IMG/VR virus record: IMGVR_UViG_3300005098_000057
Location: 1-29,777 of that record
Strand: one strand, 5' to 3'
Length of the DNA: 29,777 bases
Source of the DNA: a virus
Every line of letters begins with the position of its first letter. Within the stretch, counting starts at the first letter, position 1. The position numbers and the translations under genes were made by a program. Below, one piece after another: positions 3,017-28,086 of this stretch. The notes beneath the pieces are model-generated. The model ran no database searches. It was not told the DNA's origin and saw only the letters and a program-made list of their open reading frames with translations.

Positions 3017-3399
3017 TGGGTGTCTGGTGTAATGATGCTATGCTTGACACAGCATTGAACTGGCTCAAGAATGGAGCCGACAAGCTATGCTTGTGTAGTC
3101 AGCAACCTGCTTCCTATGCGGAAGCAACATCCACGTATTGCCTTGGCTCGATAGCCATTGGCTCTGCCAATTTTGGAGAAGTTGAAGATGGGCTTGTCTC
3201 AGGGAGGCGTGTAACGGTGAATGTGGCTGATGCCATTCCCGTAGGTGCTACGGGTGTGCTCAACCATATTGCTCTTGTGAGCGATATCTCGCAAGAGCTG
3301 CTGTATGTTGTCCCCTGTCCTGAAAGGGATGTTGCTCAGGGAAGTGAGGTTGTGCTTGGCCAGTTCTATGTAGAACTGCGAGACCCAATTTCGGTGTAG
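3016..3399 (+). CDS. Conserved phage virion-associated protein
   Basis: The 127-residue protein opens MGVWCNDAMLDTALNWLKN and continues with CSQQPASYAEATSTYCLG. Later it has GRRVTVNVADAI and GVLNHIALVSD. This order is common to a widespread family of unnamed phage proteins encoded between tail-hub and fibre genes. The fold is probably a beta sandwich. Translation is coupled to the previous gene through a one-base TAATG overlap. There is no catalytic motif. It is probably a particle component, with the family recognised by pattern and the role inferred from position. Confidence 0.6.
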   Translation: MGVWCNDAMLDTALNWLKNGADKLCLCSQQPASYAEATSTYCLGSIAIGSANFGEVEDGLVSGRRVTVNVADAIPVGATGVLNHIALVSDISQELLYVVPCPERDVAQGSEVVLGQFYVELRDPISV

Positions 3400-3409
3400 G
3401 AGGTATGTT

Positions 3410-3910
3410 ATGAAGATTGCTGCAACTGTGTGTGCCTTCTGGGAGTGGGAGTTGTGGAGAAACAGTGTTCTGCTTGACCAGTGGGCATATTGCAATAAGA
3501 TTGTTAAGCAGGGGCTGAATGCTTGGCTCGACATCATGTTTCATGGGACGACACAGGTGTCAACCTGGTATATCCTTGTATTTGAGGATGACTATGTGCC
3601 TACAGCAGACGATACATATCAAAGCCCTGGATTTACAGAGTGCGAGGCGTATAGTGAGGCTACAAGACCAGTGTTCAATGAGGGTGCTGCCAGTAACGGG
3701 ACGATAAATAACTATGATAATCCTGCAGTGTTCAGCATCAATGCAACAAAGACAATATATGGTGCAGCCCTTGTGAGCAACAGCACAAAGGGTGATAACA
3801 GTAGCGGATACTATATGTTTTCAGCGGCTAACTACGGTGAGGGCAAGCCTGTTGAAAACGGAGACACCTTGAAAGTGAAGCTTGCCATTACGGTGACAAG
3901 CACCACATAG
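3410..3910 (+). CDS. Conserved phage virion-associated protein
   Basis: The 166-residue protein starts after AGGAGGTATGTT. The first third has WYILVFEDDYVPTADDTY followed by PGFTECEAYSEATRP. The rest shows AVFSINATKTIYGAALVS and ENGDTLKVKLAITVT. This series of strands is shared by a common unnamed phage family found beside the preceding gene's family, often near tail fibres. Beta structure throughout suggests a particle surface or tail component. There is no membrane segment or enzyme motif. Confidence 0.6.
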   Translation: MKIAATVCAFWEWELWRNSVLLDQWAYCNKIVKQGLNAWLDIMFHGTTQVSTWYILVFEDDYVPTADDTYQSPGFTECEAYSEATRPVFNEGAASNGTINNYDNPAVFSINATKTIYGAALVSNSTKGDNSSGYYMFSAANYGEGKPVENGDTLKVKLAITVTSTT

Positions 3911-3922
3911 TGGAGGAAAGGC

Positions 3923-5476
3923 TTGGCTTTTACTTGGAATCCAGATGACAAGCACCATAGTATAGAGCTTTCCGATGGCAACTTAGTGGCCAAACATATC
4001 TGGGAAGGTCATTCGTCAGGGACTGTTCGTGCCACTGGTGGGGCTTCGTCTGGGAAGTGGTATTGGGAACTCCAGCATCTTGGCGGTTGCGATTTCGCAT
4101 ACTGCATTGGATATTACGGAATAGCACTTGCCAGTCACCCTCTTATCGATGGAGTTGGTGCAACGGAAGAGAGTTACTGCTTCACGAATCACGGTAATGG
4201 TGCTTACAAGAAGCATGCTGCCGGTCTCGAAGCTTACGGTGTACCTATCACCGAGGGCGATGTCATTATGGTCGCCCTTGACCTCGACAGCGGCAAGGTA
4301 TGGTGGGGCAAGAACGGAACGTGGTTCGAGAATGGGGACCCAGTTGCTGGGACCAATCCAGCCTACACGGGTCTTTCTGGGTGCTTCTATCCAGCAGTTA
4401 GCTTCTACCTGTATGGGACTAAAGCGAAAGCTAGATTCTGGAAGAACCATCTGTCCTTCACACCTCCTGCGGGCTTTAGGCCCTGGGAGGGTGGGATTTA
4501 CACAGTATCTTTCGATGAAGGAGCTGAAGTCTCCGACGCATATGACGCTAAGAGAGGCTATACGCTTGAAATAGAGGAGCGAGCAAGTGCCGAGGACAAG
4601 CCACACGTAGCGAGCCCCAACTATCTGACGATTGCGGAAGAGGCTCTTGTATCTGAGCGTTACGACGTTCCTAGTCCTGTATATACGGAGGTTACTGAGC
4701 TCGGCTCAGTAGAGGATGTCTATGCTGCTGCCAACCTGACCACAGCAATTACTGAAGCGGCTGGTGTCGAAGACGAATACGTCGTAAGCCCGAAATTTGG
4801 TGCTGAGGCGGACCAAGGACTCGTCCAGGACCACTGGGAAATTAGTGTTTTCAAGAAGTTTCTGCCTACTGACAGCTACATTGGACATGTTGGTAGCTCT
4901 CCGACTATTGACATTACAAAGGCCCCGATTACAGGAGAAGCCGTCCTAGACATTGCTGCTGATGTGGCTGGGCTCGGCGGAGCTCTCCTGTCGGAGGGTA
5001 TTGAGGTCTCCTGCAAAGCAACTGCTTCGCAGGTCATTGTGGCACAAGGCATTGCATCTGCAATGCTCGGTGTGGAAGCCCTGGGTGCTGGCTTCGCAGA
5101 AGCAACCACGGAAGTGGATGTCGATGCCACAGGCTGCGTCAGCACGCTTGGCAGTGCTATCGCAGAACTGCTGTTAAGCGTAAGCGGCGAGGCCCATGCA
5201 GAGATTAGAGGTCAAGGCGATGCGAGCATTGTTTCTCGCATCAGTGCTGTTGGTCACAGCGAGGCTGTCGCCGAAGGCCAGGTTGATGTAATCCTTGGGC
5301 TTTCAGCCGTGGGTGTGATTGGCAAGCTCGCTCGTGGCGAGTGCACCTTGCAGCTCGCTGTGGAGGGAAGCGGAGCTTCAGTGCCGACAGGCGAGGCTGA
5401 GGCCAGCCTCAGGCTGTGCCTGCAAGCATTCGCTAGAACGAACATTGGAGTATGTGTATTGAGGTATACAAGATAA
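3923..5476 (+). CDS. SPRY-domain tail fibre or adhesin-like protein
   Basis: The 517-residue protein starts with TTG at 3923, five bases after GGAGGA; no better ATG exists. Residues 1-188 form a clear SPRY domain: GKWYWEL at 44-50, GDVIMVALDLDSGKVWWGKNG at about 112-132, YPAVS at 156-160 and FTPPAGFRPW at the end. SPRY modules bind proteins or glycans and occur in phage receptor-binding or decoration proteins. Residues about 198-310 hold roughly six degenerate 20-residue repeats built on VxDxY...E. Residues about 335-505 are rich in Ala, Gly and Val with longer degenerate beta repeats. This head plus repeat-stalk design suits a fibre or host-recognition protein. Binding partner unknown. Confidence 0.75.
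   Translation: MAFTWNPDDKHHSIELSDGNLVAKHIWEGHSSGTVRATGGASSGKWYWELQHLGGCDFAYCIGYYGIALASHPLIDGVGATEESYCFTNHGNGAYKKHAAGLEAYGVPITEGDVIMVALDLDSGKVWWGKNGTWFENGDPVAGTNPAYTGLSGCFYPAVSFYLYGTKAKARFWKNHLSFTPPAGFRPWEGGIYTVSFDEGAEVSDAYDAKRGYTLEIEERASAEDKPHVASPNYLTIAEEALVSERYDVPSPVYTEVTELGSVEDVYAAANLTTAITEAAGVEDEYVVSPKFGAEADQGLVQDHWEISVFKKFLPTDSYIGHVGSSPTIDITKAPITGEAVLDIAADVAGLGGALLSEGIEVSCKATASQVIVAQGIASAMLGVEALGAGFAEATTEVDVDATGCVSTLGSAIAELLLSVSGEAHAEIRGQGDASIVSRISAVGHSEAVAEGQVDVILGLSAVGVIGKLARGECTLQLAVEGSGASVPTGEAEASLRLCLQAFARTNIGVCVLRYTR
5049..5066 (+). repeat. Intragenic inverted repeat
   Basis: Perfect 8-base arms GCATTGCA and TGCAATGC are separated by two bases, inside the repeat-rich C-terminal part of the SPRY protein gene. 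There is no sign of a terminator. Confidence 0.6.
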
Positions 5477-5477
5477 A

Positions 5478-5966
5478 ATGTCAAATTTTGATAATTCTTC
5501 GGAGGAATGCTGGGACAGGCTATGCCTGTCGATGAACCTGCGGCGACTAGCCGTCAGCCAGTATGGCAACTTTAACTTTGACGGTCTCGTGGAGATGAAC
5601 GGAGTTCCTCTCGCCTTTAGCAAGGACGGTATATATGTCCTCGAAGGCGATGATGATGACGGACAGCCTATACAAGCTCTGCTTGAATTCATGACAGATA
5701 TGGAGTCTGAAAGGCAGAAGAGGTTGCGGAGCTGCTATCTTGGCTGCGAAGCCGACGGCGACTTGCGTCTGGTGCTGCGGAACGATGAGGGGAACGTGCG
5801 AGAATATGTGTTTACACATAAGCCTATGCAACACTCTGCCAGAGTGGCTGTAGGCAGGAGTGGTCGGGGACGATACTGGACATTTGCGATAGAGAATATA
5901 GGTGGTTGCTACTTCTGTATTGATACGGTCGATGCTGTGGTAACAGTGATGCGGAGGAAGCCGTGA
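5478..5966 (+). CDS. Conserved phage virion protein
   Basis: The 162-residue protein has the run LAVSQYGNFNFDGLVEMNG, then AFSKDGIYVLEGDDDDG, KRLRSCYLGCEADGDLRL and GRSGRGRYWTFAIENIGG. I recognise this as a conserved phage family encoded with tail or fibre genes; its function is not established. The start chosen is ATG at 5478, two bases past the upstream stop; it has only GAGG 13 bases away. ATG at 5532 is an alternative, also without a good ribosome site. The first five codons (MSNFD) are copy 2 of the dispersed palindromic element. The gene ends in a GTGA overlap with the next start. Confidence 0.6.
   Translation: MSNFDNSSEECWDRLCLSMNLRRLAVSQYGNFNFDGLVEMNGVPLAFSKDGIYVLEGDDDDGQPIQALLEFMTDMESERQKRLRSCYLGCEADGDLRLVLRNDEGNVREYVFTHKPMQHSARVAVGRSGRGRYWTFAIENIGGCYFCIDTVDAVVTVMRRKP
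5480..5492 (+). promoter_or_regulatory. Dispersed palindromic element, copy 2
   Basis: The sequence is GTCAAATTTTGAT followed by AATTCT, one mismatch from the core consensus. It starts three bases after the stop of the SPRY gene and is read as the first codons of the following gene. GGAGG follows at 5501-5505. Confidence 0.7.
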
Positions 5967-10479: not shown

Positions 10480-10492
10480 GTCAAATTTTGAC
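10480..10492 (+). promoter_or_regulatory. Dispersed palindromic element, copy 3
   Basis: The sequence is GTCAAATTTTGAC with flanks AAAA and TTTT, making 10-base perfect arms around one central T. It lies in the 32-base gap between two small basic genes, two bases after the stop, and is followed by CTTGGAGG, the next ribosome site. Confidence 0.8.
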
Positions 10493-10722: not shown

Positions 10723-11436
10723 ATGCCTGTCATAGCAAGACCAAGACCACAAGGATGGTATGGCCGAGTAGCGAGTTTCTTTGGCTTCGCAGAGCCGTTC
10801 ATGCCTGTGCCCTTGATGACGCACAGACAATTTGCGAGGGCGATAATGCCTCTGTTCAGCGAGGAGCTGGCTGAGCGGAGTGCAAGGATACCACCTGACC
10901 TGATGGCCCTAGTCAAGCGGATACCAAAGAGTGTGGTGCGGAGCATAAAGAGAGTGCAGCTCATGCCTCAATCAAGAGCGAAATTTGGCATAAGAGCAGA
11001 AACAGTACCAAGCTGGTATATCAGGACCCTGCCCAAGAGCAAGCAGAGACTCCTTTTGGGCAGGACGAGGTTCGTAAGGAGAGTTCCATTTATCAGGCTC
11101 TTCAAGGGCGGAACAGCACGTGGAGCGACAGCGGCGGATGTAAAGACGCCGTTCCACGAAGCAGGGCATGAGCTAGAGTCTTTCCTATTCCGTGATAAAG
11201 AACTAGGGCGACTCTTGTGGTCTCTCTACAAGGAAGACCCTGATGCAGTCTTGAGGTTTCAGAGAGCCACCAATGTCTACATGCGTAACCCTCACGAAGT
11301 GCTTGCGGAGACCGCTGCGAGACGAATCTTCAAAAAGGCCGATTGGCCAAGATGGGGAGAGGCCTACGACGTTGCTCCTGAATGGGCAAAGTGGGCCGTT
11401 GAAGAGGCCATCAAGAGAGCTGGAGGAATACCATAA
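10723..11436 (+). CDS. HEAGHE zincin-like metallopeptidase, copy A
   Basis: The 237-residue protein starts with ATG right after the previous stop, with GGAGGG upstream. It carries FHEAGHELES, with H145, E146 and H149 forming the HExxH zinc site. About 43 residues later comes NPHEVLAE, where E192 is a good candidate third ligand; this HExxH plus E-x-x-A plan is shared by small zincins such as ImmA/IrrE-like proteins. The first 120 residues are basic and predicted helical. There is no signal peptide. It lies directly before a paralogue and the giant ejection-protein candidate, so it may process internal virion proteins or act on the cell during entry. Substrate unknown. Confidence 0.65.
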   Translation: MPVIARPRPQGWYGRVASFFGFAEPFMPVPLMTHRQFARAIMPLFSEELAERSARIPPDLMALVKRIPKSVVRSIKRVQLMPQSRAKFGIRAETVPSWYIRTLPKSKQRLLLGRTRFVRRVPFIRLFKGGTARGATAADVKTPFHEAGHELESFLFRDKELGRLLWSLYKEDPDAVLRFQRATNVYMRNPHEVLAETAARRIFKKADWPRWGEAYDVAPEWAKWAVEEAIKRAGGIP

Positions 11437-12209
11437 TGCCAGTTGCAGCGAAATCAAGACGTTTCTCTCTTGTGAGACACATTAAGGAGATGGGACCTCC
11501 ATCTGGTGCAGCCATTAGTGCAGGCCCTGGATGGAGGGAGAGGGCATGGGGTGCATATATCAGAATGGCTAAGAAACTTGGCCTCGACGAGCCTTACGCT
11601 CCTTTTGCTGGACCGATGCCTATGTTGACATACAGGCAGTTTGCCAGAACCATAATGCCACTGTTCGAGAGACGAGTGATATATCTTGGTGGTGGAAGAA
11701 GGAAGGGGATTCCACCTGAAGTGATGGCCCTGGTTAAGAAGATACCAAAGAGTGTGGTGCGGAGGATGAAGAGAGTGAGAGTCATACAGCCTCGAGTAGA
11801 GCCGAGATGGGGAGGTTATACATATCCGAGCTGGTTTGTTAAGAAACTGCCGAAGGCTACACAGAGGAAACTCTTGGGAAGGGCAAGATTCGTGAGGCGA
11901 GCTCCTACAACAAAGTTGCACGTGGAAGGAGGTCCAGAGGTAGCATTTCACGAAGCGGGACATGAGCTTGAGTCTATGCTTGGCTTAGGTGAGAACGTGG
12001 AAGACCGTCTTTGGAGGTTGTATAACAGGTATCTTGGACAGGCTGTAAGGTTTGAGACTGTGATAGGAGAGCCGATGCCAGACCCTCACGAAGTGCTTGC
12101 GAACACGTTTAGAGCGAAAGTTCTTGAACCAGAAGCATATAAGCATGCTCCTGAATGGGCAAAACGGCTTGTTGACAAGGCTATTAGGAAAGCTGGAGGA
12201 ATACCATGA
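11436..12209 (+). CDS. HEAGHE zincin-like metallopeptidase, copy B
   Basis: The 257-residue protein is a clear tandem paralogue of the preceding gene. Both have Y/HRQFAR.IMPLF, ALVK.IPKSVVR, PSW..K/RTLPK, RFVRR and FHEAGHELES, and both end AGGIP. HExxH here is H172-E173-H176, and the possible third ligand is E219 in DPHEVLAN. Stretches of DNA are still identical between the two copies (for example around 10923 and 11743, ATACCAAAGAGTGTGGTGCG), so the duplication is not ancient. The gene overlaps the previous stop by one base (TAATG) and the next start by four. Both copies keep the zinc residues, which argues that both are active. Target unknown. Confidence 0.65.
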   Translation: MPVAAKSRRFSLVRHIKEMGPPSGAAISAGPGWRERAWGAYIRMAKKLGLDEPYAPFAGPMPMLTYRQFARTIMPLFERRVIYLGGGRRKGIPPEVMALVKKIPKSVVRRMKRVRVIQPRVEPRWGGYTYPSWFVKKLPKATQRKLLGRARFVRRAPTTKLHVEGGPEVAFHEAGHELESMLGLGENVEDRLWRLYNRYLGQAVRFETVIGEPMPDPHEVLANTFRAKVLEPEAYKHAPEWAKRLVDKAIRKAGGIP

Positions 12210-16378: not shown

Positions 16379-17186
16379 GGACAGCACCACAGGATGAAAG
16401 GGAATTCCATCTTTTGTGAGCTCTTGGTATTTGACCAAGAGCTTCTTCCCTTTCAGTTCATCACGCCGTTTCCAGTAGCGGTCCCTCTGCACTTCCGTGA
16501 GGCCAGAACCAACGCTGAAGATGCCGCCGTCACCTTTGCATATGAAGGCACCGAGAGTGCCCTTCGGGATCTATGGTTCTTTCTTCCTTGACACCGATTA
16601 TCTCATAGGTGTCAGTCTTCGATGGCTTCAGCTTCATGATGTTCGTGCTTCGCTTCTCCTCGTAGAAAGCGTCTCTGTTTCTTACAATGATGCCCTCGTA
16701 GCCATCGGCTAGGAACGTATCAAGCAGCTCATGCACCTCCACAAGGGAATATGCTTGGAAAGTAGGAACTATCCAGACGCTAGACGTAGCAAGATTGACT
16801 AGTGAAGCTAGCGTCGCAATACGCTGCTTCTGCGTCGTCCAAATGACCTTGATATCGAAGATGCTGTATACTATCTGTGAATAGTCAGGATGTAAGCTGT
16901 TCTGTCGTGAAACGATGCTCCGAATGTCCTGGAGTTTCTTGCCAGGTATCCAGAGCTCACCATCAAAGACACCCTCGTATTTCCAAGAGACAAGCTCCTC
17001 GTTGATGTGCGGAACGCTGACAATCTTGTTGCCTTGGCTTGACAGCAGTGTAACTTTGTCGTTCTCGCAGACTGCAAGGCAGCGATTGCCGTTTATCTTT
17101 GGCTGACAAAGCCACGGCTTTGGCCACTTGAAAAGCCTGCGTTCCTCAAAGGGAACAGCCAACATCACTCCCTTTCTCGCTCCCAT
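16352..17186 (-). CDS. ATP-dependent DNA ligase, interrupted by a +1 frameshift
   Basis: This enzyme seals nicks with ATP through a lysyl-AMP intermediate. The frame from ATG at 17186 (after GGGGAGGAAGG) has motif I CQPKINGNR (K30, R35), motif III VFDGELW (residues 73-79), motif IV EGIIVR (164-169) and motif V MKLKP (184-188). It then runs out of the family pattern after EERTIDPEG and stops at 16530. In the +1 frame from about 16570 the sequence continues PKGTLGAFICKGDGG, GLTEVQRDRYWKRR, LLVKYQELTKDGIPFHPVV, exactly the expected OB-fold domain, to a TAG at 16352. Together they make about 278 residues, normal for a minimal viral ligase. The break may be an assembly error, a real lesion or a programmed shift at CCC-G. 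Confidence 0.85.
16419..16443 (+). terminator. Possible rightward intrinsic terminator
   Basis: Perfect 10-base arms AGCTCTTGGT and ACCAAGAGCT flank a 5-base loop and are followed on the + strand by TCTTCCCTTTC. It lies 41 bases past the end of the rightward virion operon and inside the 3' part of the leftward ligase gene. The U-tract is imperfect, so termination is likely but not certain. Confidence 0.5.
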
Positions 17187-17545
17187 CTTCCTTCCTCCCC
17201 ATCATATTTATATCCTATCTTGCGTAAGCATACACAGAGTGCATTTGCACTTACTCCACATTTCATGCTGAAAGACCTCATTGACCCAAAGATGCGAAGC
17301 ACACGCTCAACACCACCATACCTGGCGAAAGCCTCGGAAGCAAAGCCGTGCGGAGCGTTGCTCCGTCGCTTGTCTTTCAGTCTGATGCCGAGCTTCCGCA
17401 GGTTTGTCCTGATACAGTTTGGTGAGAAGCCCCAATACCTGACCATCCCAGCTACACCAATCGTCTTATATTGATGTTCCAAGATGGCCTTCATGTCCTC
17501 ACCCAGGGTGTTTACCACCACTTGCAGAAAAGTGTCTTCTGCCAT
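17165..17545 (-). CDS. Helix-turn-helix-like protein, paralogue of the upstream gene
   Basis: The 126-residue protein starts with ATG at 17545 behind GGGGGTGAC. It has two helix-turn-helix-like units: GVAGMVRYWGFSPNCIRTNL (about residues 30-49) and SMKCGVSANALCVCLRKIG (about 93-111). Between them lies NAPHGFASEAFARYGGVERVL, which is nearly shared with the 179-residue protein encoded just upstream. Such paired units resemble DNA-binding repeats near homing nucleases and phage regulators, but no nuclease residues are visible. A DNA-binding role is inferred. It overlaps the ligase start by 22 bases. Confidence 0.55.
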   Translation of the reverse strand: MAEDTFLQVVVNTLGEDMKAILEHQYKTIGVAGMVRYWGFSPNCIRTNLRKLGIRLKDKRRSNAPHGFASEAFARYGGVERVLRIFGSMRSFSMKCGVSANALCVCLRKIGYKYDGEEGRWERERE

Positions 17546-17549
17546 CTTG

Positions 17550-17627
17550 TCACCCCCTTACCACTAGGAAGGTTAGTATTAGCAGTGCTAATGCGATTAA
17601 CAAAGCTATAATGTCAAATTTTGACAT
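17550..17627 (-). CDS. 25-residue single membrane-segment peptide
   Basis: ATG at 17627 follows GGAGGTGGGAGAA, a full ribosome site with 8-base spacing. The frame begins MSKFDIIALL and continues as an unbroken run of Leu, Ile, Ala, Val and Thr ending in VVRG before TGA at 17550, an ideal transmembrane helix. The next gene starts four bases later behind its own site. The first codons coincide with copy 4 of the dispersed element and overlap the end of the 179-residue gene. It could be a small membrane regulator or holin-like peptide; no function can be assigned. Confidence 0.5.
   Translation of the reverse strand: MSKFDIIALLIALALLILTFLVVRG
17578..17592 (+). repeat. Short odd palindrome
   Basis: ATTAGC and GCTAAT flank AGT inside the 25-residue peptide frame, 21 bases from copy 4 of the dispersed element. 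Confidence 0.35.
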
Positions 17628-18145
17628 TTCTCCCACCTCCTAGCGTCTCTGCTGTAACGATAGCCCTTCTTGCGAAGATACTGCCCAAGGGTGGTGCTGT
17701 GCACCTTGCAGACCGAGCTGAATCTCCCTACGGTCTGGAACCTGCGAAGCACCTTCTCAATACCACCGTATCTGGCGAAGGCTTCACAAGCGAGGCCGTG
17801 CGGAGCATTGTTGTAGAGCCTCGACTTCGTCCTGATGCCAAGCTCCCGCAGCCCCTTGCGAATGACCACCCCTGTGAAGCCCCAGTGCTTCTGCATCCAG
17901 GTTGAGCCTCGCTCTCGATACTGCTCTCGCAGCACCATCCTTGCAAGCTCCCTGTCACAGCCGTAAGTCATCATGACATTCCAGAGGAACGACCCTCTGG
18001 ACTGTTCAGCCACCGCCGAAGCAATAGCTGCCTTCAGCTTCTCGTATAGAGGTCCTCCAAGCGAGTCCACAAGAGCAAACAGCTCTTGTGCTTCCTTGTT
18101 GGAGAGCCACGCCACAAGTTTATACCCTCGTCTGTCCCTTGGCAT
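17606..18145 (-). CDS. Helix-turn-helix-like protein, larger paralogue
   Basis: The 179-residue protein starts with ATG at 18145, five bases after GGAGG in AAAGGAGGACAAT. Residues about 95-170 match the 126-residue neighbour: IRKGLRELGIRTKSR, NAPHGLACEAFARYGGIEKVL, LRKKGYRYSRDARRWEK. It adds an N-terminal helical domain of about 75 residues (KEAQELFALVDSLGGPLYEK). Two helix-turn-helix-like units are visible near 83-104 and 146-165. The last codons (CQNLTL) are supplied by copy 4 of the dispersed element, unlike the paralogue, which ends in a charged tail, so the gene end seems to have been altered by the element. Probably DNA-binding; target unknown. Confidence 0.55.
   Translation of the reverse strand: MPRDRRGYKLVAWLSNKEAQELFALVDSLGGPLYEKLKAAIASAVAEQSRGSFLWNVMMTYGCDRELARMVLREQYRERGSTWMQKHWGFTGVVIRKGLRELGIRTKSRLYNNAPHGLACEAFARYGGIEKVLRRFQTVGRFSSVCKVHSTTLGQYLRKKGYRYSRDARRWEKCQNLTL
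17613..17625 (+). promoter_or_regulatory. Dispersed palindromic element, copy 4
   Basis: The + strand reads GTCAAATTTTGAC followed by ATTTCT; the 17-base stretch from 17611 is symmetric apart from its central base. This is the only copy whose TTTCT flank points against the direction of transcription. It overlaps the end of the 179-residue gene and the start of the 25-residue membrane peptide. Confidence 0.8.
18068..18090 (+). repeat. Intragenic inverted repeat, 9-base arms
   Basis: Perfect arms CACAAGAGC and GCTCTTGTG flank AAACA, within the N-terminal part of the 179-residue helix-turn-helix-like gene. Confidence 0.6.
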
Positions 18146-18719: not shown

Positions 18720-19922
18720 TCACCCTCCATAAACATACCAGATGTCGCCTGTTGGCTTCCCATCTGGCCCATTATACACACGCTTTACGAGACGCTGTCG
18801 TAAGACAGTGTCCATAACATTGTCAAACTTCTTGCTGTCAATGTCCCGCCAGACAAGACGCATAAGCTCCCGCTCTGTTATCCACTTCCGAGATTTGACA
18901 ATCTCGACAACAAGATTGACATCCGCAGCTACCAAGCTGCGGCCTACGGCTTTGAACACGTTGTGCATCTGGGCTTCCACCTCCTCGAGGTCTCGGAGCG
19001 AAGCTTCAATGTGAGACCAGTCTACGACGAGGTCGTTCGACCTCGCTGCAGCATGAACGATTGCGAGCTTCAGCAAGTAGAGGGGCTTTCGCTCATACCA
19101 GCCATCGAAGACTGGGTCTGGGCATAGCTGTGCCGTTCTGTCGTAGTCGTCATACCATTCAATCCAGCGTTGTCTGCACTCAGGCGAGAACTCGTATGTC
19201 CCCGCTATACGAGAGATAATGTAGAGGTCGTTCTTGAGAGCCCTACAGAGCTCTCGCTCTTCTTCATCCTCAACGGGAATTGGAACAGGCTTTGCCCGCC
19301 GTGTGGCCCAGACGAATATGATTCTCGACGTTAGCCCACTGCCAATGGCACTGCTTGGCAGTGAGGATGCAATGCTCTCGGGTGTTGTCGCAGCAAGAAC
19401 ATTGAGGAACACAGATGGAACGACGTTTGTCCCAGTGTGTTTCGTTCGATACTTCCAGGGTATTTCCTGAGCGTCGAACAGGTCTGTTAGCATAACAATC
19501 ATCTTCGTGTTATCGCCCTTCTGACCGAGGAAGCTCTCAAACTCTTTCGACGTGACCGTCAAGCTGCTGTGCTGAAAGCGTGAGCCGTCAGGCATTTGCT
19601 CGTCAACTGCACTGTTTTCCAAATCTTGAATCAACGCCTGTGGCGTGACTGCGTCAGCACTCAGAATAACGTCGGGTATCTCCGACAGGAATTTTATTCC
19701 GAAGGAGATGGCTTGACTCTTGCGAGCAGCACCTGGCGGTGCAACCAGCACGACATACATATTAGGATACACGTTTATCCTGCCAAGCGAAAGCTTCGCT
19801 TTCTTGCGAAGCACAGCTGCAATCACAGACATAGCTACCCACCTGTGAAAGATTGTGGCACTTTCTGTGTTCTGCATATACCGAAGGTATGCTTCAATCC
19901 AGTCATTTAACATTCTCCCCAT
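18720..19922 (-). CDS. DUF3987-like primase-helicase ATPase
   Basis: The 400-residue protein begins with ATG at 19922, nine bases after GGAG. The N-terminal FHRWVAMSVIAAVLRKK leads into YVVLVAPPGAARKSQAI (residues 56-72), a Walker A variant with K68-S69. The hydrophobic strand IVMLTDLFDAQE follows at about 140 as a Walker B candidate, then NVLAATTPESI and GLTSRIIFVWA. This order matches the DUF3987 helicase-like proteins that phages use in replication. The C-terminus (WITERELMRLVWRDIDSKKFDNV...LVKRVYNG) looks like a winged helix. Its place directly after the DNA polymerase suggests that it is the replicative helicase. Walker A lacks the usual second Gly (Arg67 instead). Confidence 0.7.
   Translation of the reverse strand: MGRMLNDWIEAYLRYMQNTESATIFHRWVAMSVIAAVLRKKAKLSLGRINVYPNMYVVLVAPPGAARKSQAISFGIKFLSEIPDVILSADAVTPQALIQDLENSAVDEQMPDGSRFQHSSLTVTSKEFESFLGQKGDNTKMIVMLTDLFDAQEIPWKYRTKHTGTNVVPSVFLNVLAATTPESIASSLPSSAIGSGLTSRIIFVWATRRAKPVPIPVEDEEERELCRALKNDLYIISRIAGTYEFSPECRQRWIEWYDDYDRTAQLCPDPVFDGWYERKPLYLLKLAIVHAAARSNDLVVDWSHIEASLRDLEEVEAQMHNVFKAVGRSLVAADVNLVVEIVKSRKWITERELMRLVWRDIDSKKFDNVMDTVLRQRLVKRVYNGPDGKPTGDIWYVYGG
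19337..19363 (+). repeat. Intragenic inverted repeat, 9-base arms
   Basis: Perfect arms CACTGCCAA and TTGGCAGTG are separated by nine bases, inside the helicase-like gene. Confidence 0.5.
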
Positions 19923-19924
19923 CG

Positions 19925-22237
19925 TTACTGTCTCCAGTCAATATCGAGCTCTTCCATATCGCCCCAATATCCTCCGACCTTGAAGTCGACGTCGATTATC
20001 ATTGTCTCGTTGTTGACAGGGACTTCTCTTATCATATGCTCTCGCATTAGGCGGACGCATCTGTCGACCTTCTCAGGCTCGGCTGCTACGTAGATTGCGT
20101 CGTGGAGCTGGATGCAGACATCAAACTCGCTGCCGTGAGCCCGATAGAAGCTCTCTGCCGATATGTTGAGCAGGTCTCCGACGGACGACTGCGGAATGTA
20201 GGCATACGCCTCTCGGAAAAGAGCGTCGCCCCACCTTCCAAGGAAGCGGTGTCTTCGACCGAAGAGGTTGATGAGCGTCCTGTTCTGGCGGAGCTGCTGC
20301 TGTATTCGCATGTGCCAGCTTTTCAAGAGGTGATTCTTCTCGTAGTAGCGGTCGAGTAAGGCTCGAGCCTGTGACAGTGTAACACCGAGACGCTCGGCGA
20401 CAGTCGCAGGGCCTGCAGCGTAGTTGCAAGCATGACGGAGCGTCTTCCCTATGCGACGCTGTGCTGGCGTGACTTCGTCTACAGGTATTTCATACATTAG
20501 GCTTGCCGTGTAGCGATGGATATCGTATTTCTTCTTCCTCAAGGAAGGAGGTATTCCGAAGCTGTCCTTGAACATCTTCATCAGGACAGTGTCAAGACAC
20601 AAGTAGGCCACCACAATGGCTTCCGCCTGGACGTAGTCCGCTCCGATGAATACCTTACCCTTCGGTGCTCGATAGAGCACGCGAGCATCCTCGGGAATGT
20701 TCTGCAAATTGCCACTGCCATATGGCAAGATGATGCTTTTGCTGGAGCTCCAGCGACCACCAAACGACGTTCCTGCTATGTTATAGCAGGTGTGCACCTT
20801 TCCCTCGGGGCTGACAGTGATGTCCACGAAAGACGATTTCTTCTTGGCAACGGCCCGTCGTTCGAGGATGAGCCCAGGAACTGGGTGCACCTTTGCAAGT
20901 CTTTTCAAGGCTTGCTCGTCGGTCGTGACCTTACGCTCTTGCTCTTTGGACTTGCGTCGCTTGAATTGCAACGGCAGACCGAGGTCGACGTAGAGCAAGC
21001 GTCTCACTTGGTCTGGCGAGTTGAAATTTATTTCACGGCCGCAAGCAGCAACAAGCTTCTCGTCAAGCTCCTTGAGCTTCTCATCGCATTCCTTGAGGAG
21101 TGTATCACGCTTCTGTGTGTCGACGTCTATGCCCTGCAGCTGCATGTAAATGGCGAGCTCAAGCTGTCTCATCTCCATATCGAAGATGTGTTGCTGGCCA
21201 GCGTTCCGAACTTCTCGCTCCAGGATTGGAACAAGGGCGATTGTAGCTGCTGCGTCTTGGGCATTGTAGAGGCCCATGTCTCTACTGGAGTAGGGCTTCC
21301 AGACAGGGACGTCCAGACAGATGCTTGCAAGATAGCCTAGGTCTCTCGGCAGCTCAGGCCATACAACATGGGCTGCGAGCAGTGTGTCCATATACATCTT
21401 CCTTGGGAAGATGTGGTAGCGATACCACAGCATAGCTGCGTCATACACTGCGTTGTGCATCACGATTGGGCAGCGTTCGCATAGGCGAGCTACCGCTGAC
21501 CAGATAACGATTTCATCCCTTTCAGGCCATTTTGGATACCTGCCATCCAACAGCTGGATGGAAATAGCGAAATTCGGGTCGGCTGATAAGCCAATCCACG
21601 AGACGTGAGTCTTGATGGCCTCGAGGTCGAGAGCCACAGGGCCTCTGGCACTGTCGCAAAAGTCTATGAACTCTTGCAAAGTTGGGCGAGTCTGGAAGAC
21701 CCGCTTGTCTTCTGGGATTTGTGGAAACTTACTGTGGTGAAGTGCCTTCCGCATGTCCAGAATGAACGTTGTTGCTAGCTCCCACTCGTAGTTCACCGCT
21801 TGCGGGTGGTAGGTCGCAAGGACTTTCTGTCCACGCACAAGCGTGGACTCCATCACATAGCCTCTATACGAGGCTATGCCTGTCTTGCCCGTCAGGGCCC
21901 ACAGGGCTGTCCGCCCAAGGGCGACAACAATGTTCGGGCGATACTGCTCAATCTCCTCCTTGAGGAGGTTGACCCACTCAATAAGCTGAGGCTTCGGCTT
22001 GGTGCAGGACGCATCATGAAAGTAATATTTTATGTCATTGGCAGGTGGTCTCTCACGAGCTACATTCGCTATAAGGCATTCTGCTCGGTTTATCCCTGCA
22101 TACGACAGCAGCGAATTGAGCGTCTTTCCCGCTCGCCCCACGAAAGGCCTCCCTGTCATGTCTTCTTCTTTCCCAGGGGCTTCACCGACCAGCATAATAT
22201 TGGCGGTCGGCGGACCTTCAGTAGGGACGAACGTCAT
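19925..22237 (-). CDS. Uracil-DNA glycosylase / family A DNA polymerase fusion
   Basis: The 770-residue protein joins three domains. Residues 1-165 resemble family 4/5 uracil-DNA glycosylases, with GEAPG (18-22), GRPFVGRAG (29-37), N-x-x-RERPPxN near 58-67 and YHPQAV (143-148). The usual N-terminal CxxC of the Fe-S cluster is missing. Residues about 198-340 are a 3'-5' exonuclease with D204/E206, N262/D266 and Y324/D328, so proofreading looks intact. Residues about 400-770 are family A polymerase: motif A GADYVQAE (D534), motif B R594...K598...Y606 and motif C LHDAIYV (D713). Motif C has Ala after Asp instead of the common Glu, and motif B has Tyr-Ala instead of Tyr-Gly. It starts at an ATGA overlap with the methyltransferase gene. 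Confidence 0.88.
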   Translation of the reverse strand: MTFVPTEGPPTANIMLVGEAPGKEEDMTGRPFVGRAGKTLNSLLSYAGINRAECLIANVARERPPANDIKYYFHDASCTKPKPQLIEWVNLLKEEIEQYRPNIVVALGRTALWALTGKTGIASYRGYVMESTLVRGQKVLATYHPQAVNYEWELATTFILDMRKALHHSKFPQIPEDKRVFQTRPTLQEFIDFCDSARGPVALDLEAIKTHVSWIGLSADPNFAISIQLLDGRYPKWPERDEIVIWSAVARLCERCPIVMHNAVYDAAMLWYRYHIFPRKMYMDTLLAAHVVWPELPRDLGYLASICLDVPVWKPYSSRDMGLYNAQDAAATIALVPILEREVRNAGQQHIFDMEMRQLELAIYMQLQGIDVDTQKRDTLLKECDEKLKELDEKLVAACGREINFNSPDQVRRLLYVDLGLPLQFKRRKSKEQERKVTTDEQALKRLAKVHPVPGLILERRAVAKKKSSFVDITVSPEGKVHTCYNIAGTSFGGRWSSSKSIILPYGSGNLQNIPEDARVLYRAPKGKVFIGADYVQAEAIVVAYLCLDTVLMKMFKDSFGIPPSLRKKKYDIHRYTASLMYEIPVDEVTPAQRRIGKTLRHACNYAAGPATVAERLGVTLSQARALLDRYYEKNHLLKSWHMRIQQQLRQNRTLINLFGRRHRFLGRWGDALFREAYAYIPQSSVGDLLNISAESFYRAHGSEFDVCIQLHDAIYVAAEPEKVDRCVRLMREHMIREVPVNNETMIIDVDFKVGGYWGDMEELDIDWRQ
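21829..21878 (+). repeat. Twin intragenic hairpins in the glycosylase segment
   Basis: GTCCACGC and GCGTGGAC flank ACAA at 21829-21848. Eight bases on, CATAGCCTC and GAGGCTATG flank TATAC at 21856-21878. Both have perfect arms and lie in the glycosylase part of the polymerase fusion. Confidence 0.6.
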
Positions 22238-23526
22238 GATTTCACCTCCTTTGATAGGGCTTCGAGAGCAGCAGCGTATGCCGCCTTGTCTATTTCACAG
22301 CCGATAGGTCGCATTTTCAATGACAGGGCTGCACGGAAGGTGCTAGCAGAGCCAGCAAATGGGTCGCAAACGACACTGTTCGGCATAACTGTTCGTTGAA
22401 TAAGCTCACGCAGGAGCTCGACAGGCTTCTCCGTCGGATGAATACGCTTGCTTGGCTCAACAGGCGGAACCTGTATCCAATCAGGACGTCCTTGCAGAAC
22501 AAGCTCACTGTCTGGCCTGCGGCAGTATAGCAGCATGTCGTAGCAGCTGGCTGGCCAGCACTTCGGTGCGTTGCACTGGCCCACGGCTCGCTTGACCCAT
22601 ATGACAGGACGAACGTGCGGGAGCCAGCCTACGGCTTCAAAGATTGTCCGCACAGCATGAAAGTATTCAGGTGCTACGAATATCCAGGCGTGAGCCGTGC
22701 TCTTGCAAAAGCGGAAGCTCTCACGTGCAAGCACGGTGTAGAGCTCGAAAGCCTCGTCAGGCTTGTCCTCGAACTTGTAACCAGCTGTGCTGACACCACC
22801 CGTTTCACGGCCTACGCTGGTGGCGATTTCATCTATGTTAATACCGTAAGGCGGGTCTGTCAGCAACAGGTCGACAGACCTGTCTGGTATAGTCGGCATC
22901 CACTCCCTTGCATCTGCAAGGTGTAAATCCCACTCCAAGCAAGCTTGGCGAGCGAGCTCAGCTCGCCGCAAGGCAACGTCGATGCTCTTCGCCGCTCGCT
23001 TGATAGCCGATTTCTTCTTGAGCCTCGCAAGTTCGGGGAATGTTTCCACAGCCTCTGCTATCTGGATATGCTCGATGACCTTAGCTCTGCTAACACCAAG
23101 GCTTTCGGCAGTTTTGTCGAGTGTCCATCCGCCCTCTCGGCCGCTTTGCGACTCGCCATAAAGCTTTTGCTTTATGTTGTGAAGGTCCCGTATAGCGAGG
23201 GCCTCCTCGGCGGGAGTGAGGTTTTCTCGCTGCAAATTCTCTTCGAGCTCGATTTCTCGCAGAACCAGCGGGTCAACTGCGTCTATGTAGATGCAGCGAA
23301 CCTTCCGCTGCCCTATCTTGCACGCCGCTAGGCGGCGTCCACCTGCAACAAGCCTCATGTCACGAGTTACTATGATAGGGACGAACTGTCCGTATTTCTC
23401 CATAGAGTGGAGAAGCTTCTTCAGCTTTCGCTGGTCGACCTCCCTCCGATACCTCGGAAGGTCTTCGTCAAGGACGACCTCGTCGGGGTCGACCTCGAAG
23501 ATTTCCTTCTTGTTGAAGTAAGACAT
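22234..23526 (-). CDS. ParB-like / DNA methyltransferase fusion
   Basis: The 430-residue protein starts with ATG at 23526 behind GGAGGACTAGGAA. Residues about 10-160 are ParB/Srx-like: GQFVPIIV (46-53), AGGRRLAA (61-68), EENLQRENLTPAEEA (95-109), then a helix-turn-helix near TLDKTAESLGVSRAKV (135-150). Residues about 195-430 are an amino-methyltransferase with motif IV DPPYGI (224-229), then HPTEKPVELL and motif I DPFAGS (388-393), the order of beta-class enzymes. It transfers methyl from AdoMet to adenine N6 or cytosine N4 in DNA; which base and site is not visible. No restriction gene is adjacent, so protection of viral DNA or regulation is more likely. It overlaps the polymerase start by four bases. 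Confidence 0.85.
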   Translation of the reverse strand: MSYFNKKEIFEVDPDEVVLDEDLPRYRREVDQRKLKKLLHSMEKYGQFVPIIVTRDMRLVAGGRRLAACKIGQRKVRCIYIDAVDPLVLREIELEENLQRENLTPAEEALAIRDLHNIKQKLYGESQSGREGGWTLDKTAESLGVSRAKVIEHIQIAEAVETFPELARLKKKSAIKRAAKSIDVALRRAELARQACLEWDLHLADAREWMPTIPDRSVDLLLTDPPYGINIDEIATSVGRETGGVSTAGYKFEDKPDEAFELYTVLARESFRFCKSTAHAWIFVAPEYFHAVRTIFEAVGWLPHVRPVIWVKRAVGQCNAPKCWPASCYDMLLYCRRPDSELVLQGRPDWIQVPPVEPSKRIHPTEKPVELLRELIQRTVMPNSVVCDPFAGSASTFRAALSLKMRPIGCEIDKAAYAAALEALSKEVKS

Positions 23527-23547: not shown

Positions 23548-23560
23548 GTCAAAATTTGAC
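23548..23560 (-). promoter_or_regulatory. Dispersed palindromic element, copy 5
   Basis: On the minus strand it reads GTCAAATTTTGAC then TCTTCTGGGGAGG, running straight into the ribosome site of the methyltransferase gene. It begins three bases after the stop of the zinc-ribbon gene, in a 37-base gap. Confidence 0.8.
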
Positions 23561-24340: not shown

Positions 24341-24813
24341 TTGCTCTCTCCGACGGCAGTCATCCTGCGGATTTCATTAGACACTGTCCCCTCGTATTCA
24401 CGGATGCCAACTTGTACGTCTACATGCAAACCAATCCACTCACCGTTGCGGATGCCCTCGGCAATCTTCTCTGGTGTGGACATGTCCACTCCCATTGCGT
24501 CGCAAAAGCGGTGGAGCATGTTGATTTTAGCCTGACGCTTTGTCATCCTGCCGTCACGAGTGAGCTCGTTCTCGTCTCCCTCCTTTGGGAGGAAGTTACG
24601 ATAGTAGAGAATGCTCCCGTCAATGGGGGTTTCACCGTCACTCTTAACCCCACCATTCTCATTCAATGTTACCTGCCACACGACTGCGTTCTGGTCAGGG
24701 TCATAGCTGACTGCTGTCACGTGCCCGTGATACGTGCCTTGAGGCACGAGGGGCTCGGGCTTAAATTCTTCTTCCACGTCAAAACTCCCTGGGATGTAAA
24801 CTTCATTTTCCAT
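24337..24813 (-). CDS. DUF669-like recombination/replication protein
   Basis: The 158-residue protein uses ATG at 24813 behind GGAGGACAAA; a TTG further upstream lies before the ribosome site and is rejected. The pattern PQGTYHGHVTAVSYDPDQNAVVWQV...YYRNFL followed by MLHRFCDAMGVDM and GLHVDVQVGIREYEG resembles DUF669-type phage proteins. These are encoded beside Sak4 and Cas4-like nucleases and are suspected single-strand DNA-binding partners of the recombinase. The beta-rich first half fits an OB-like fold. It overlaps the upstream ATPase gene by 11 bases. Function is inferred from family and context. Confidence 0.65.
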   Translation of the reverse strand: MENEVYIPGSFDVEEEFKPEPLVPQGTYHGHVTAVSYDPDQNAVVWQVTLNENGGVKSDGETPIDGSILYYRNFLPKEGDENELTRDGRMTKRQAKINMLHRFCDAMGVDMSTPEKIAEGIRNGEWIGLHVDVQVGIREYEGTVSNEIRRMTAVGESK

Positions 24814-25528
24814 TTTGTCCTCCTTTTTCAATGTACTCCATTATTGCCTGCCAATCATTAGGAACGAAGTCTGGCAGTCGGTGCTCCTTGCCCGACAAAA
24901 TTGAGCGGGCCTTTGTCAGACCGATAGGCACAGTCTGCAAATACCACTGTGTAACGCTCTTTTCTCGACGAGTTGTTGCATAATAGACTTCGTCGAAGTA
25001 GCCTGGAACCTTTTCAGACAACTGGCCCGTGAGCAACGGGCCGATGTCTATAATGGCCCCAGTTGACTCGTCACGCTTGATGTCAATGTGCGAAAGCACA
25101 ATGACATTGCAAGGCAATGACACTATCTGCCGCAGCTTGCCCTCCACCAGATTGCGAACCATCTGGTAGTGGACATTCCAGATTGGTCCGCCTGTCGGTG
25201 ACCGCTTAGGGTCGAGCATCAATGCTCTTTCCATCGCAAGGTCAGTCATGGTTGTTGTCGAGTCGACGACAACCGTCTTATATCTGTCGATGTCCTTGCG
25301 AAGCTGCAGCAAATCTTTTTCAAACTTCACCCAGTCCTGCCAAGTCATCTTGTAGGTCTCGTAGTCGAAGTCCTTGCCAGCATACGTAAGTATGTGACCA
25401 TCGAAGTCGAAGACAAATCCAGGAGTAGGAGCACTCGCTGCGAAAGTGCTCTTCCCTGTTCCATACGAGCCGATGACCATTATCTTCAGGTGCTGGGTGT
25501 TGGCCTTAACATCCTTTGCACTCGGCAT
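24803..25528 (-). CDS. Sak4-like RecA-fold recombination ATPase
   Basis: The 241-residue protein has Walker A GSYGTGKST at residues 20-28 and Walker B YKTVVVDST ending at 83-91. The strand PCNVIVLSHIDIKRDES lies near 140-155, as in the AAA_24/Sak4 group of phage ATPases. These RecA-like proteins anneal or pair single-stranded DNA. It is flanked by a RecB/Cas4-like nuclease and a DUF669-like protein, which together form a standard phage recombination cassette. The start ATG at 25528 lies 23 bases inside the upstream gene and has GAAGGAGG before it. Confidence 0.85.
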   Translation of the reverse strand: MPSAKDVKANTQHLKIMVIGSYGTGKSTFAASAPTPGFVFDFDGHILTYAGKDFDYETYKMTWQDWVKFEKDLLQLRKDIDRYKTVVVDSTTTMTDLAMERALMLDPKRSPTGGPIWNVHYQMVRNLVEGKLRQIVSLPCNVIVLSHIDIKRDESTGAIIDIGPLLTGQLSEKVPGYFDEVYYATTRREKSVTQWYLQTVPIGLTKARSILSGKEHRLPDFVPNDWQAIMEYIEKGGQNGK

Positions 25529-26450
25529 ACATGGCCTCCTTCATGTTGCTTATCCGCTTAAGCGTTGGCTCAAGATAGTCTCGCTCCGTGCGGATAAAGC
25601 CAGGAATTGGACAATCCTTGTCCTGCAGCTCATCAAGCGACAAATGTCGCTCGCAAAGCGGAGCGTAGCAGCACCTGCCAAAGCGATAGCAGCTGTCAAA
25701 CTGCATCGGCCAGCACTGATGTGCTTCGCACTGGGCGATTTGTTCCGCCGTCAAAATGAAGCTCCGCCGCCATTCGGCGAGGTCGCTGTCAGTGAAAATC
25801 ATCGGCACTCGCCTGAAGGCGATTGTCTGCTTTCCCCACGTGCCGTCTGCCTTGCGACGACAGGACACTTGGTGGATTACCACCAAGCAGCCCTGGACTT
25901 CCAGCCCCATTGCCTTTGCGGCGTAAGTGTAGCCCATTATCTGAGCCGAACGGTTGAGCCGCTCGGCGACAAGAGCAGCCGATTGTCCTGTTGTTTTGTG
26001 TTCTACAACGAAGGGGATGCCGTCGAGCACTGCCCGCATGTCTATCTTGCCAAAGAAGCCAAGGTTGTCGCCGACCTCAACAAAGAACGACTGCTCTGTG
26101 GCTTTCACCTCGAGAGAGGCAGTATCAACCTGCTGGAACTCATCAATATACGCTAGCAGGGCTTCGCCTGCTGCGTTCAATGTGCGATAGTCCTCTTCCC
26201 ATTCGGGATGAACGACTGTCTCCAGCTCCCAGATGGCTTTGCCATAGGCCAGAGCTTGTTGCACCGCTTCGCTGAGCTTCGCTCCTGCTTTGACGGCACT
26301 GTAGTAGCCCTCCATTATGGCGTGCCACGTGCTGCCATAACGCAGGGCATTGCTGCCTTGCAGAGGGCGTAGCCCACAAATGCAGGACAGGAAATACTTT
26401 CTTGGACAGGAGGCGAACGCCTCCCGTCCTGAATTGTCCAACTGCATCAT
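25506..26450 (-). CDS. RecB/Cas4-like PD-(D/E)XK nuclease with Fe-S cysteines
   Basis: The 314-residue protein has the RecB-family plan: N-terminal CPRKYFLSC (C15), H43, FFGKIDMRA (D137), VVEHKTTG (E150 and K152) and QIMGY (Q170/Y174). C15 together with C254, C260/261 and C266 matches the four-cysteine Fe-S arrangement of Cas4/AddB-like nucleases. It probably resects DNA ends to feed the Sak4-like ATPase encoded next. ATGATG at the start overlaps the previous stop; either Met is possible. A strong hairpin lies 22 bases inside the coding sequence. Confidence 0.85.
   Translation of the reverse strand: MMQLDNSGREAFASCPRKYFLSCICGLRPLQGSNALRYGSTWHAIMEGYYSAVKAGAKLSEAVQQALAYGKAIWELETVVHPEWEEDYRTLNAAGEALLAYIDEFQQVDTASLEVKATEQSFFVEVGDNLGFFGKIDMRAVLDGIPFVVEHKTTGQSAALVAERLNRSAQIMGYTYAAKAMGLEVQGCLVVIHQVSCRRKADGTWGKQTIAFRRVPMIFTDSDLAEWRRSFILTAEQIAQCEAHQCWPMQFDSCYRFGRCCYAPLCERHLSLDELQDKDCPIPGFIRTERDYLEPTLKRISNMKEAMYAECKGC
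26404..26429 (-). repeat. Strong hairpin just inside the nuclease gene
   Basis: Arms GGACAGGAGGCG and CGCCTCCCGTCC pair over 12 positions with one mismatch and an AA loop. In the mRNA it starts about 22 bases after the start codon of the RecB-like gene, a place where structure can slow translation initiation. Confidence 0.6.
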
Positions 26451-26806
26451 AGATTGATACCCACTTTTGCGAGAGCATCAATGATGGCCTGACGTTCGTC
26501 GTCTTCAAGACCAGCAAGGCGACGCTCCAATTCAGCTTTGCTGAGCTTCGGAGCTGCCGCTCTCTTGGCAGTCCACTCGCCACCTTTCAAGGTTTCCCAA
26601 CGCCTTTGGATGGCTTCACTGGCGTCCTCACCGTCACGGCCTGCAGCAGCATCGCCCAACACCTGGCTGAGTCCGTGTATCATGAGCTTACGCTGGATGT
26701 CTGGCGAAAGCTCGTCCACACTGTAAAAGCCACTTTGCCCCGTGCTTACAACAGTAATCTCAACACCGTTGTCCTTCGGGACTTTGTCCAGTTTCTTCAC
26801 ACTCAT
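26447..26806 (-). CDS. Conserved phage recombination-operon protein
   Basis: The 119-residue protein starts with ATG at 26806, three bases after AAGGAGG. It contains LSPDIQRKLMIHGLSQVLGDAAAG followed by EAIQRRWETLKGGEWTAKRAA. I know this pattern from a widespread unnamed phage family found beside recombination or replication genes. It is helical, without enzyme motif or membrane segment. Its start lies 47 bases inside the ribbon-helix-helix gene, an unusually long overlap for this window, so the two may be translationally linked. Confidence 0.6.
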   Translation of the reverse strand: MSVKKLDKVPKDNGVEITVVSTGQSGFYSVDELSPDIQRKLMIHGLSQVLGDAAAGRDGEDASEAIQRRWETLKGGEWTAKRAAAPKLSKAELERRLAGLEDDERQAIIDALAKVGINL

Positions 26807-26954
26807 GAACCTCCTTCAGTGAAATTAAACCTCCCTCTACGAGGAGGTCAAATATAAGCTGGGACATTGACTTGCCAGCTAAAGCCGCAGCAATCTTTAG
26901 CTGACACTTTGTCCCTGCTGGCCATCTAAAGTGGAAATCTTCATATGTGTCCAT
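26760..26954 (-). CDS. Ribbon-helix-helix transcription regulator
   Basis: The 64-residue protein begins MDTYEDFHFRWPAGTK. The strand DFHFRWP is followed by two helices (QLKIAAALAG and SMSQLIFDLLVEGG), the Arc/CopG-type ribbon-helix-helix plan for dimeric DNA binding. The start ATG at 26954 lies only 2-4 bases past the predicted transcription start of a sigma70 promoter, so the message may be nearly leaderless; a longer frame upstream would run through the promoter. An operator-like inverted repeat overlaps the -35 box. The simplest reading is an autoregulated repressor controlling the recombination-replication operon that follows. Confidence 0.7.
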   Translation of the reverse strand: MDTYEDFHFRWPAGTKCQLKIAAALAGKSMSQLIFDLLVEGGLISLKEVHECEETGQSPEGQRC

Positions 26955-26963
26955 TTGTCCATT

Positions 26964-26992
26964 TGTATAACATACCTTTTTCAAGGTGTCAA
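26964..26992 (-). promoter_or_regulatory. Sigma70-type promoter of the regulator gene
   Basis: On the minus strand TTGACA (26987-26992) is followed after exactly 17 bases by TATACA (26964-26969). Predicted transcription starts near 26957, about three bases before the ATG at 26954. It is the best promoter match I see in the window. Confidence 0.75.
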
Positions 26993-27018
26993 CCCCTAAA
27001 TTTACAAGGTTGACACCT
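26984..27018. promoter_or_regulatory. Operator-like inverted repeat over the -35 box
   Basis: Perfect 11-base arms AGGTGTCAACC (26984-26994) and GGTTGACACCT (27008-27018) flank a 13-base A/T-rich spacer. The left arm contains the -35 box. Bound protein would block the promoter, and the adjacent ribbon-helix-helix protein is the natural candidate. The half-site GTCAA/TTGAC is the same as in the dispersed element. Confidence 0.7.
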
Positions 27019-27309: not shown

Positions 27310-27561
27310 TCATTTGACTCGTCTAACGACCAGTGTGCAGCCCCTTCCTAAGGGGATGAGTTTCATCTGGCCCACCCTCAGTGGAAGGATGTTGTCCTCC
27401 CTGACACCTAATATCCCAAGATGTGACATGTCGCACATCCTTTTCAAGGAAATTCTTGGCTGATGAGCGATGCAATCACCGTGAGGTGATACAATTTTGC
27501 TGCACAGCAGCACAGCTGCAGGGTTACAAGAAATGTCAAAATTTGACCTTTTCGCTGACAT
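27310..27561 (-). CDS. Hypothetical 83-residue protein
   Basis: ATG at 27561 follows GGAGGAGGAACAACG, a strong ribosome site lying in the end of the upstream gene. Codons 5-9 (RSNFD) come from copy 6 of the dispersed element. The C-terminal half, HLGILGVREDNILPLRVGQMK followed by a short basic beta strand, looks like a genuine small beta fold; the N-terminal half is less protein-like. A shorter start at 27429 (39 residues, AAGGA upstream) is possible. Function unknown. Confidence 0.45.
   Translation of the reverse strand: MSAKRSNFDISCNPAAVLLCSKIVSPHGDCIAHQPRISLKRMCDMSHLGILGVREDNILPLRVGQMKLIPLGRGCTLVVRRVK
27475..27512. repeat. Two adjacent small hairpins
   Basis: ATCACC and GGTGAT flank GTGA at 27475-27490, and TGCTGC and GCAGCA flank ACA at 27498-27512. 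No T-run follows either on the minus strand, so they are not obvious terminators. Confidence 0.45.
27535..27547 (-). promoter_or_regulatory. Dispersed palindromic element, copy 6
   Basis: On the minus strand it reads GTCAAATTTTGAC then ATTTCT. It contains the stop codon (TTTTGA) of the frameshift-corrected 88-residue gene and codons 5-9 of the following gene. Confidence 0.8.
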
Positions 27562-28073: not shown

Positions 28074-28086
28074 GTCAAAATTTGAC
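28074..28086 (-). promoter_or_regulatory. Dispersed palindromic element, copy 7
   Basis: On the minus strand it reads GTCAAATTTTGAC then GTTTCTGAAAAGAGAGGAGG, leading into a ribosome site. The symmetry extends outward as GAAA-n-core-n-TTTC. It starts three bases after the stop of the 24-residue membrane peptide. Confidence 0.8.

Follow-up and report, generated by a model that had tools for sequence, protein, structure and literature searches.

In a virus contig of 29,777 bases that may be a fragment (the window, meaning the whole stretch of DNA analysed), a small ribbon-helix-helix (RHH) protein appears to head a recombination and replication operon as an autorepressor translated from a leaderless mRNA, a reading to which we assign a probability of roughly two in three. 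The locus is real, and varies a kind of autoregulated promoter that is already known. The features at the head of the operon are as follows.

26763-26954, minus strand: 64-aa Arc-type RHH protein, without a Shine-Dalgarno sequence (Pfam, family profile, model).
26955-26958, minus strand: predicted transcription start zone, leader of 0-4 nt (from the -10 position).
26964-26972, minus strand: extended -10 element, with TG at 26972-26971, T, and TATACA at 26969-26964 (read from the sequence).
26987-26992, minus strand: -35 box TTGACA (read from the sequence).
26984-27018, no strand assigned: candidate operator, the inverted repeat AGGTGTCAACC-13-GGTTGACACCT (exact arms, shuffles, conservation).

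On the minus strand the elements run in the order AGGTGTCAACC-TTGTAAATTTAGG-GGTTGACACCT-TGAAAAAGGTATGT-TATACA-AATGGACAA-ATG, and the promoter reads TTGACA-17-TGTTATACA with a 17-nt spacer between the -35 and -10 boxes, so that the TTGACA-17-TATACA minus-strand promoter proposed in a preliminary description of this DNA is correct to the base. A standard promoter scan, which requires T as the last -10 base, missed it because TATACA lacks that final T. The predicted +1 is at approximately 26957, with the A at 26956 and 26955 preferred, and the ATG (26954-26952) falls at +4. The near-zero leader predicted earlier is supported by this spacing and by relatives that the preliminary description had not seen. 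TTGACA promoters of such quality are not rare on their own, with three in the window (one on the minus strand) against 0.88 expected per shuffled window, and the evidence is conservation.

Close relatives, at 84-97% DNA identity, keep the repeat, the -35 and -10 boxes and the ATG. Distant relatives were gathered by searches with Sak4 and the 119-aa protein encoded by the second gene, and the homologous operon (RHH, small conserved protein, PDDEXK nuclease, Sak4 annealase) was found in about 30 distinct viral contigs. Nearly all of these operons carry TTGACA-17-TGnTATnnT directly 5' of the RHH gene, and their RHH proteins are often <20% identical to that of the window; most distant relatives with upstream sequence have a small RHH gene before the 119-aa gene. 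Across 25 thinned promoters of relatives TTG is invariant, TTGACA is the consensus and TG is present at 92-96%, and the family consensus has CTTGAAAATA before the -35 box and nCTGG after it. A direct repeat with a period of 21-23 bp on both sides of the -35 box was considered and rejected, since own-versus-other matching was not significant (p=0.17-0.32); an A-rich UP-like element may account equally well for these two flanks. Nucleotide and protein searches of phage records for the operon found none. One relative (L002) has a 1.3-kb cassette at 2480-3960, encoding 157-aa HTH-like and 240-aa proteins, before its RHH gene, and the repeat region recurs there in degenerate form at around 2570.

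Most relatives start the RHH gene 18-89 nt downstream of the promoter with a Shine-Dalgarno sequence. The predicted leader is 12-89 nt in 22 promoters, with at least a weak Shine-Dalgarno sequence in all but L018 (12 nt), and ≤6 nt in eight promoters, none of which has one (Mann-Whitney p=1e-4, Fisher p=2e-4 for leader length against Shine-Dalgarno, with rows that are not independent). Seven of the eight short-leader rows (the window, L103, L106, L112, L116, L113 and L123) form one clade of the Sak4 tree (support 90/82), within which Sak4 identity goes down to 65%, leaders are 0-6 nt and the Shine-Dalgarno sequence is absent. The ATG lies at +1 in L112 and L123, at +2 in L116 and at +7 in L113 (or +1, counting from an in-frame ATG farther upstream). 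A single origin of short leaders in the window's clade is thus probable, an argument drawn solely from Sak4 because the tree of the 119-aa protein, which is short, does not group all seven rows. In that tree the eighth row, L142, pairs with the leadered L128, perhaps indicating a second origin. Strong GGAGG-type sites precede most of the phage's other genes, whereas the RHH gene has none; hence the missing Shine-Dalgarno sequence is not the general style of the phage. Leaderless genes are those whose mRNA begins at or a few nucleotides from the start codon and which lack a Shine-Dalgarno sequence; leaderless translation of the RHH gene, raised earlier as a possibility, is a prediction well supported by the predicted 5' end, the bare start codon and the clade comparison.

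Translation could instead begin at TTG 26984, at 8-nt spacing from an AGGGG, on a read-through mRNA, which would give a longer protein and a gene that is not leaderless. The AGGGG is at a good distance and the frame is open and conserved (MKKVCYTNGQMDTYED), but the promoter itself accounts for conservation there, and the sisters L112, L116, L113 and L123 have the promoter in the same place and no such upstream start with a Shine-Dalgarno sequence. We consider this start highly improbable, the least likely of the alternatives weighed here.

Translated from ATG 26954, the RHH protein would begin MDTYEDFHFR. Against Pfam Arc (PF03869), its best family match, it scores E=0.012 and 15.9 bits, below the gathering cut-off of 20.4, and it is Arc-like without being filed as an Arc family member. 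The family profile matches the solved RHH proteins 2kel, 9kkd, AvtR and ParG, with E down to 3e-7. A single-sequence AlphaFold model was poor (pLDDT 63) and an alignment-based model was used instead, with a core pLDDT above 90 and helices at residues 15-26 and 30-40. P22 Arc is among its best structural matches (rmsd 1.2, TM 0.75-0.81 normalised by target length), at Foldseek E-values that are not significant. The RHH class (MetJ/Arc/CopG) is defined by a beta-strand and two helices in a core of about 45 residues that forms an intertwined dimer, and on its modelled helices, Arc matches and profile the 64-aa protein falls into it, presumably with the strand pairing and dimer of the class, in agreement with the Arc-like regulator described previously. 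The outward strand residues D6, H8 and R10, aligned by eye, correspond to Arc Q9, N11 and R13. With P22 Arc the window protein shares its fold and its strand motif (FHFRWP, against FNLRWP in Arc); it differs in lying at a recombination operon with a different candidate operator, and no Ant/Mnt immunity region as in P22 was seen.

The inverted repeat has arms at 26984-26994 and 27008-27018 that are 11 bp long, 100% complementary and 13 nt apart, and its downstream arm covers the -35 box, in keeping with the 11-base-arm repeat described before. ACCTTG occurs twice inside it, 23 bp apart (27010-27005 and 26987-26982). Perfect repeats with arms ≥11 and spacers ≤20 number 0.15 on average per dinucleotide-shuffled window and two in the real window, only one of which sits on a promoter; in a promoter-sized stretch 0/200 shuffles attain the observed repeat (p=0.005, the floor). 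The exact half-site is found once elsewhere in the window, within a coding region. L003, L007, L028 and L002 preserve the repeat, the -35 box, the -10 box and the ATG almost without change, with a 14-nt repeat spacer in L028 and one mismatch in the left arm of L002.

The repeat might act in RNA, as a hairpin in a read-through mRNA that serves processing, attenuation or stability, with a secondary or absent role as DNA operator. Its fold is stable (-19.9 kcal/mol, z=-5.3) and the genes upstream share the strand, with no clear terminator in between. However, no U-tract follows the repeat, L002 has no right-arm change to compensate its left-arm mismatch, the -35 box dictates the sequence of the right arm and a transcript starting at 26957 would lack the hairpin, and we rate this role as improbable, if slightly less so than the TTG start. 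An Rfam search gave no match.

For a DNA operator, the distant relatives offer a partial comparison. Repeats beyond those in shuffles occur in L066 (CCCAGATGT-14-ACATCTGGG) and L080 (TTCACAGCTTG-14-CAAGCTGTGAA), around the -35 box as in the window, and in L074 (ATCTGATGA-11-TCATCAGAT), downstream of the -35 box over the spacer and -10; relative to L066 and L080, the axis in the window is shifted upstream by about 5 bp. The spellings differ among these four promoters and the arms match inside each, as a co-evolving repressor-operator pair would give. Across 24 promoters, inverted arms match their own partner better than those of other promoters (p=0.0005 in the best-scoring range and frame, p≤0.0095 in each of the three frames of this range, no significance in control ranges), a result that is suggestive because the offset ranges of the permutation test were picked after viewing the alignment. 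A symmetric operator is not family-wide, since 24/28 promoters, most relatives among them, have no significant inverted repeat (p>0.1).

A further alternative accepts the promoter and the leaderless start and supposes that the RHH protein activates or acts at other promoters, while the repeat serves a different protein, of phage or host. RHH proteins are able to act at sites other than their own promoter, and an exact copy of the repeat with a 13-nt spacer lies immediately before a RecT-like gene at L038:6909-6943, in an unrelated contig of an apparently Bacillus-like phage, with no RHH gene noticed among the surrounding listed ORFs; this copy may be coincidence or convergence. Against another user, the two arms occur together only at the RHH promoter in the record, and the RHH gene adjoins the promoter in nearly every related operon examined. 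When bacterial and archaeal genomes were scanned for the repeat, six matches emerged, none beside an RHH gene, and the bacterial copies look like terminators or chance. We regard this alternative as unlikely, yet the least unlikely of the three. Of an autorepressed RHH operon, in which the protein binds an operator in its own promoter and represses it, the sequence shows an operator-like repeat and the gene order. Self-repression by the 64-aa protein through binding to the repeat is plausible, and we infer it because some relatives carry self-matching, differently spelled repeats around the -35 box.

Several known systems share parts of this arrangement. Lambda cI from PRM and Tn1721 tetR are natural leaderless mRNAs (PMC4965119, PMC9938897), and the window resembles them in having a regulator gene on an mRNA predicted to begin at the AUG; it differs in its RHH rather than HTH or TetR fold and in its single promoter, and no integrase or lysogeny module was seen. 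The cI precedent offered earlier is hence fair for leaderless translation of a repressor but not for the circuit. A lambda-type switch comprises a temperate module with an integrase and divergent repressor promoters; no tyrosine integrase (PF00589) was matched in 20 related records, possibly partial genomes, and no divergent promoter was apparent by eye at the other arm of the repeat, so a switch of that type is not supported here. MobC of plasmid RA3 is likewise an RHH protein encoded by the first gene of an operon, and represses its own promoter via an overlapping palindrome; it differs from the window gene in having a ribosome binding site, an operator placed between -35 and -10, and a role in conjugation (PMC4175270). 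CvkR of CRISPR-associated transposons is a mobile-element repressor with a leaderless mRNA (predicted in the window) and a palindromic target over promoters, but is of the MerR type, and the published data point away from CvkR autoregulation (PMC9938897).

Downstream of the RHH gene, and in the case of the 119-aa gene overlapping it, lie the following.

26447-26806, minus strand: second gene, 119-aa protein with an LGDAAAG motif and a GGAGG Shine-Dalgarno sequence.
25506-26450, minus strand: RecB/Cas4-like PDDEXK nuclease (Pfam PDDEXK_1, E=4.9e-19; PHROG exonuclease).
24803-25528, minus strand: Sak4-like single-strand annealing ATPase (phrog_124, E=5.8e-31).
23526-22234, minus strand: ParB N-terminal domain fused to a DNA methyltransferase (domain matches).
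22237-19925, minus strand: family A DNA polymerase with an N-terminal uracil-DNA glycosylase (UDG) domain (domain matches).
19922-18720, minus strand: primase/helicase (domain matches).
17186-16533: ATP-dependent DNA ligase.

The replication genes together span 18720-23526 on the minus strand, and the RHH gene heads nuclease, Sak4 and replication genes, which bears out its position at the head of the recombination and replication operon that the promoter was earlier said to feed. The same description suggested that this may be the main early control point, which is not established because several small unknown genes lie upstream on the same strand, with no clear terminator before the RHH gene, and transcription from upstream could read through; the gene lies inside a same-strand run from 29740 to 16530. 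The window also holds two pairs of genes duplicated in tandem (10723-11436 and 11436-12209; 17165-17545 and 17606-18145; DNA repeats D2-D4, D9). Separately, a 13-bp palindrome, GTCAAAWTTTGAC, has seven copies in the window (six perfect) at or near gene boundaries, against 0.5 expected.

744-756, 5480-5492, 10480-10492, 17613-17625, 23548-23560, 27535-27547, 28074-28086: copies of GTCAAAWTTTGAC.

Twelve copies occur in a 36,993-base relative and eight in a 37,030-base relative, some kilobases apart, and they are candidate dispersed binding sites, stoperator-like or ParB-like.

In the autorepressor reading, a host sigma-70-type RNA polymerase would start at TTGACA-17-TGTTATACA, about 0-4 nt before the RHH ATG, and the first cistron would be translated from a leaderless or near-leaderless mRNA, while most of the genes after it would start from Shine-Dalgarno sites of their own. 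The RHH protein, in the simplest case as two dimers, would probably bind both arms around the -35 box and block RNA polymerase, thereby holding down the production of itself, the nuclease, Sak4 and the replication proteins; the outcome would be a burst of expression followed by shut-down. We give even odds to the broader proposal that in one clade the head gene of the operon passed from Shine-Dalgarno-led to leaderless with its promoter kept, and that the operator was rewritten together with the RHH repressor between lineages.

Bacteria and phages have few natural leaderless mRNAs, and most of these have been studied singly. In this operon, orthologues with the same promoter have a leader in some phages and apparently none in others, which makes the loss of a leader testable. 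A likely regulator can also be named for a widespread, uncharacterised Sak4 recombination operon. If the reading is true, the locus would provide a natural series for the origin of leaderless genes and for the co-evolution of repressor and operator.
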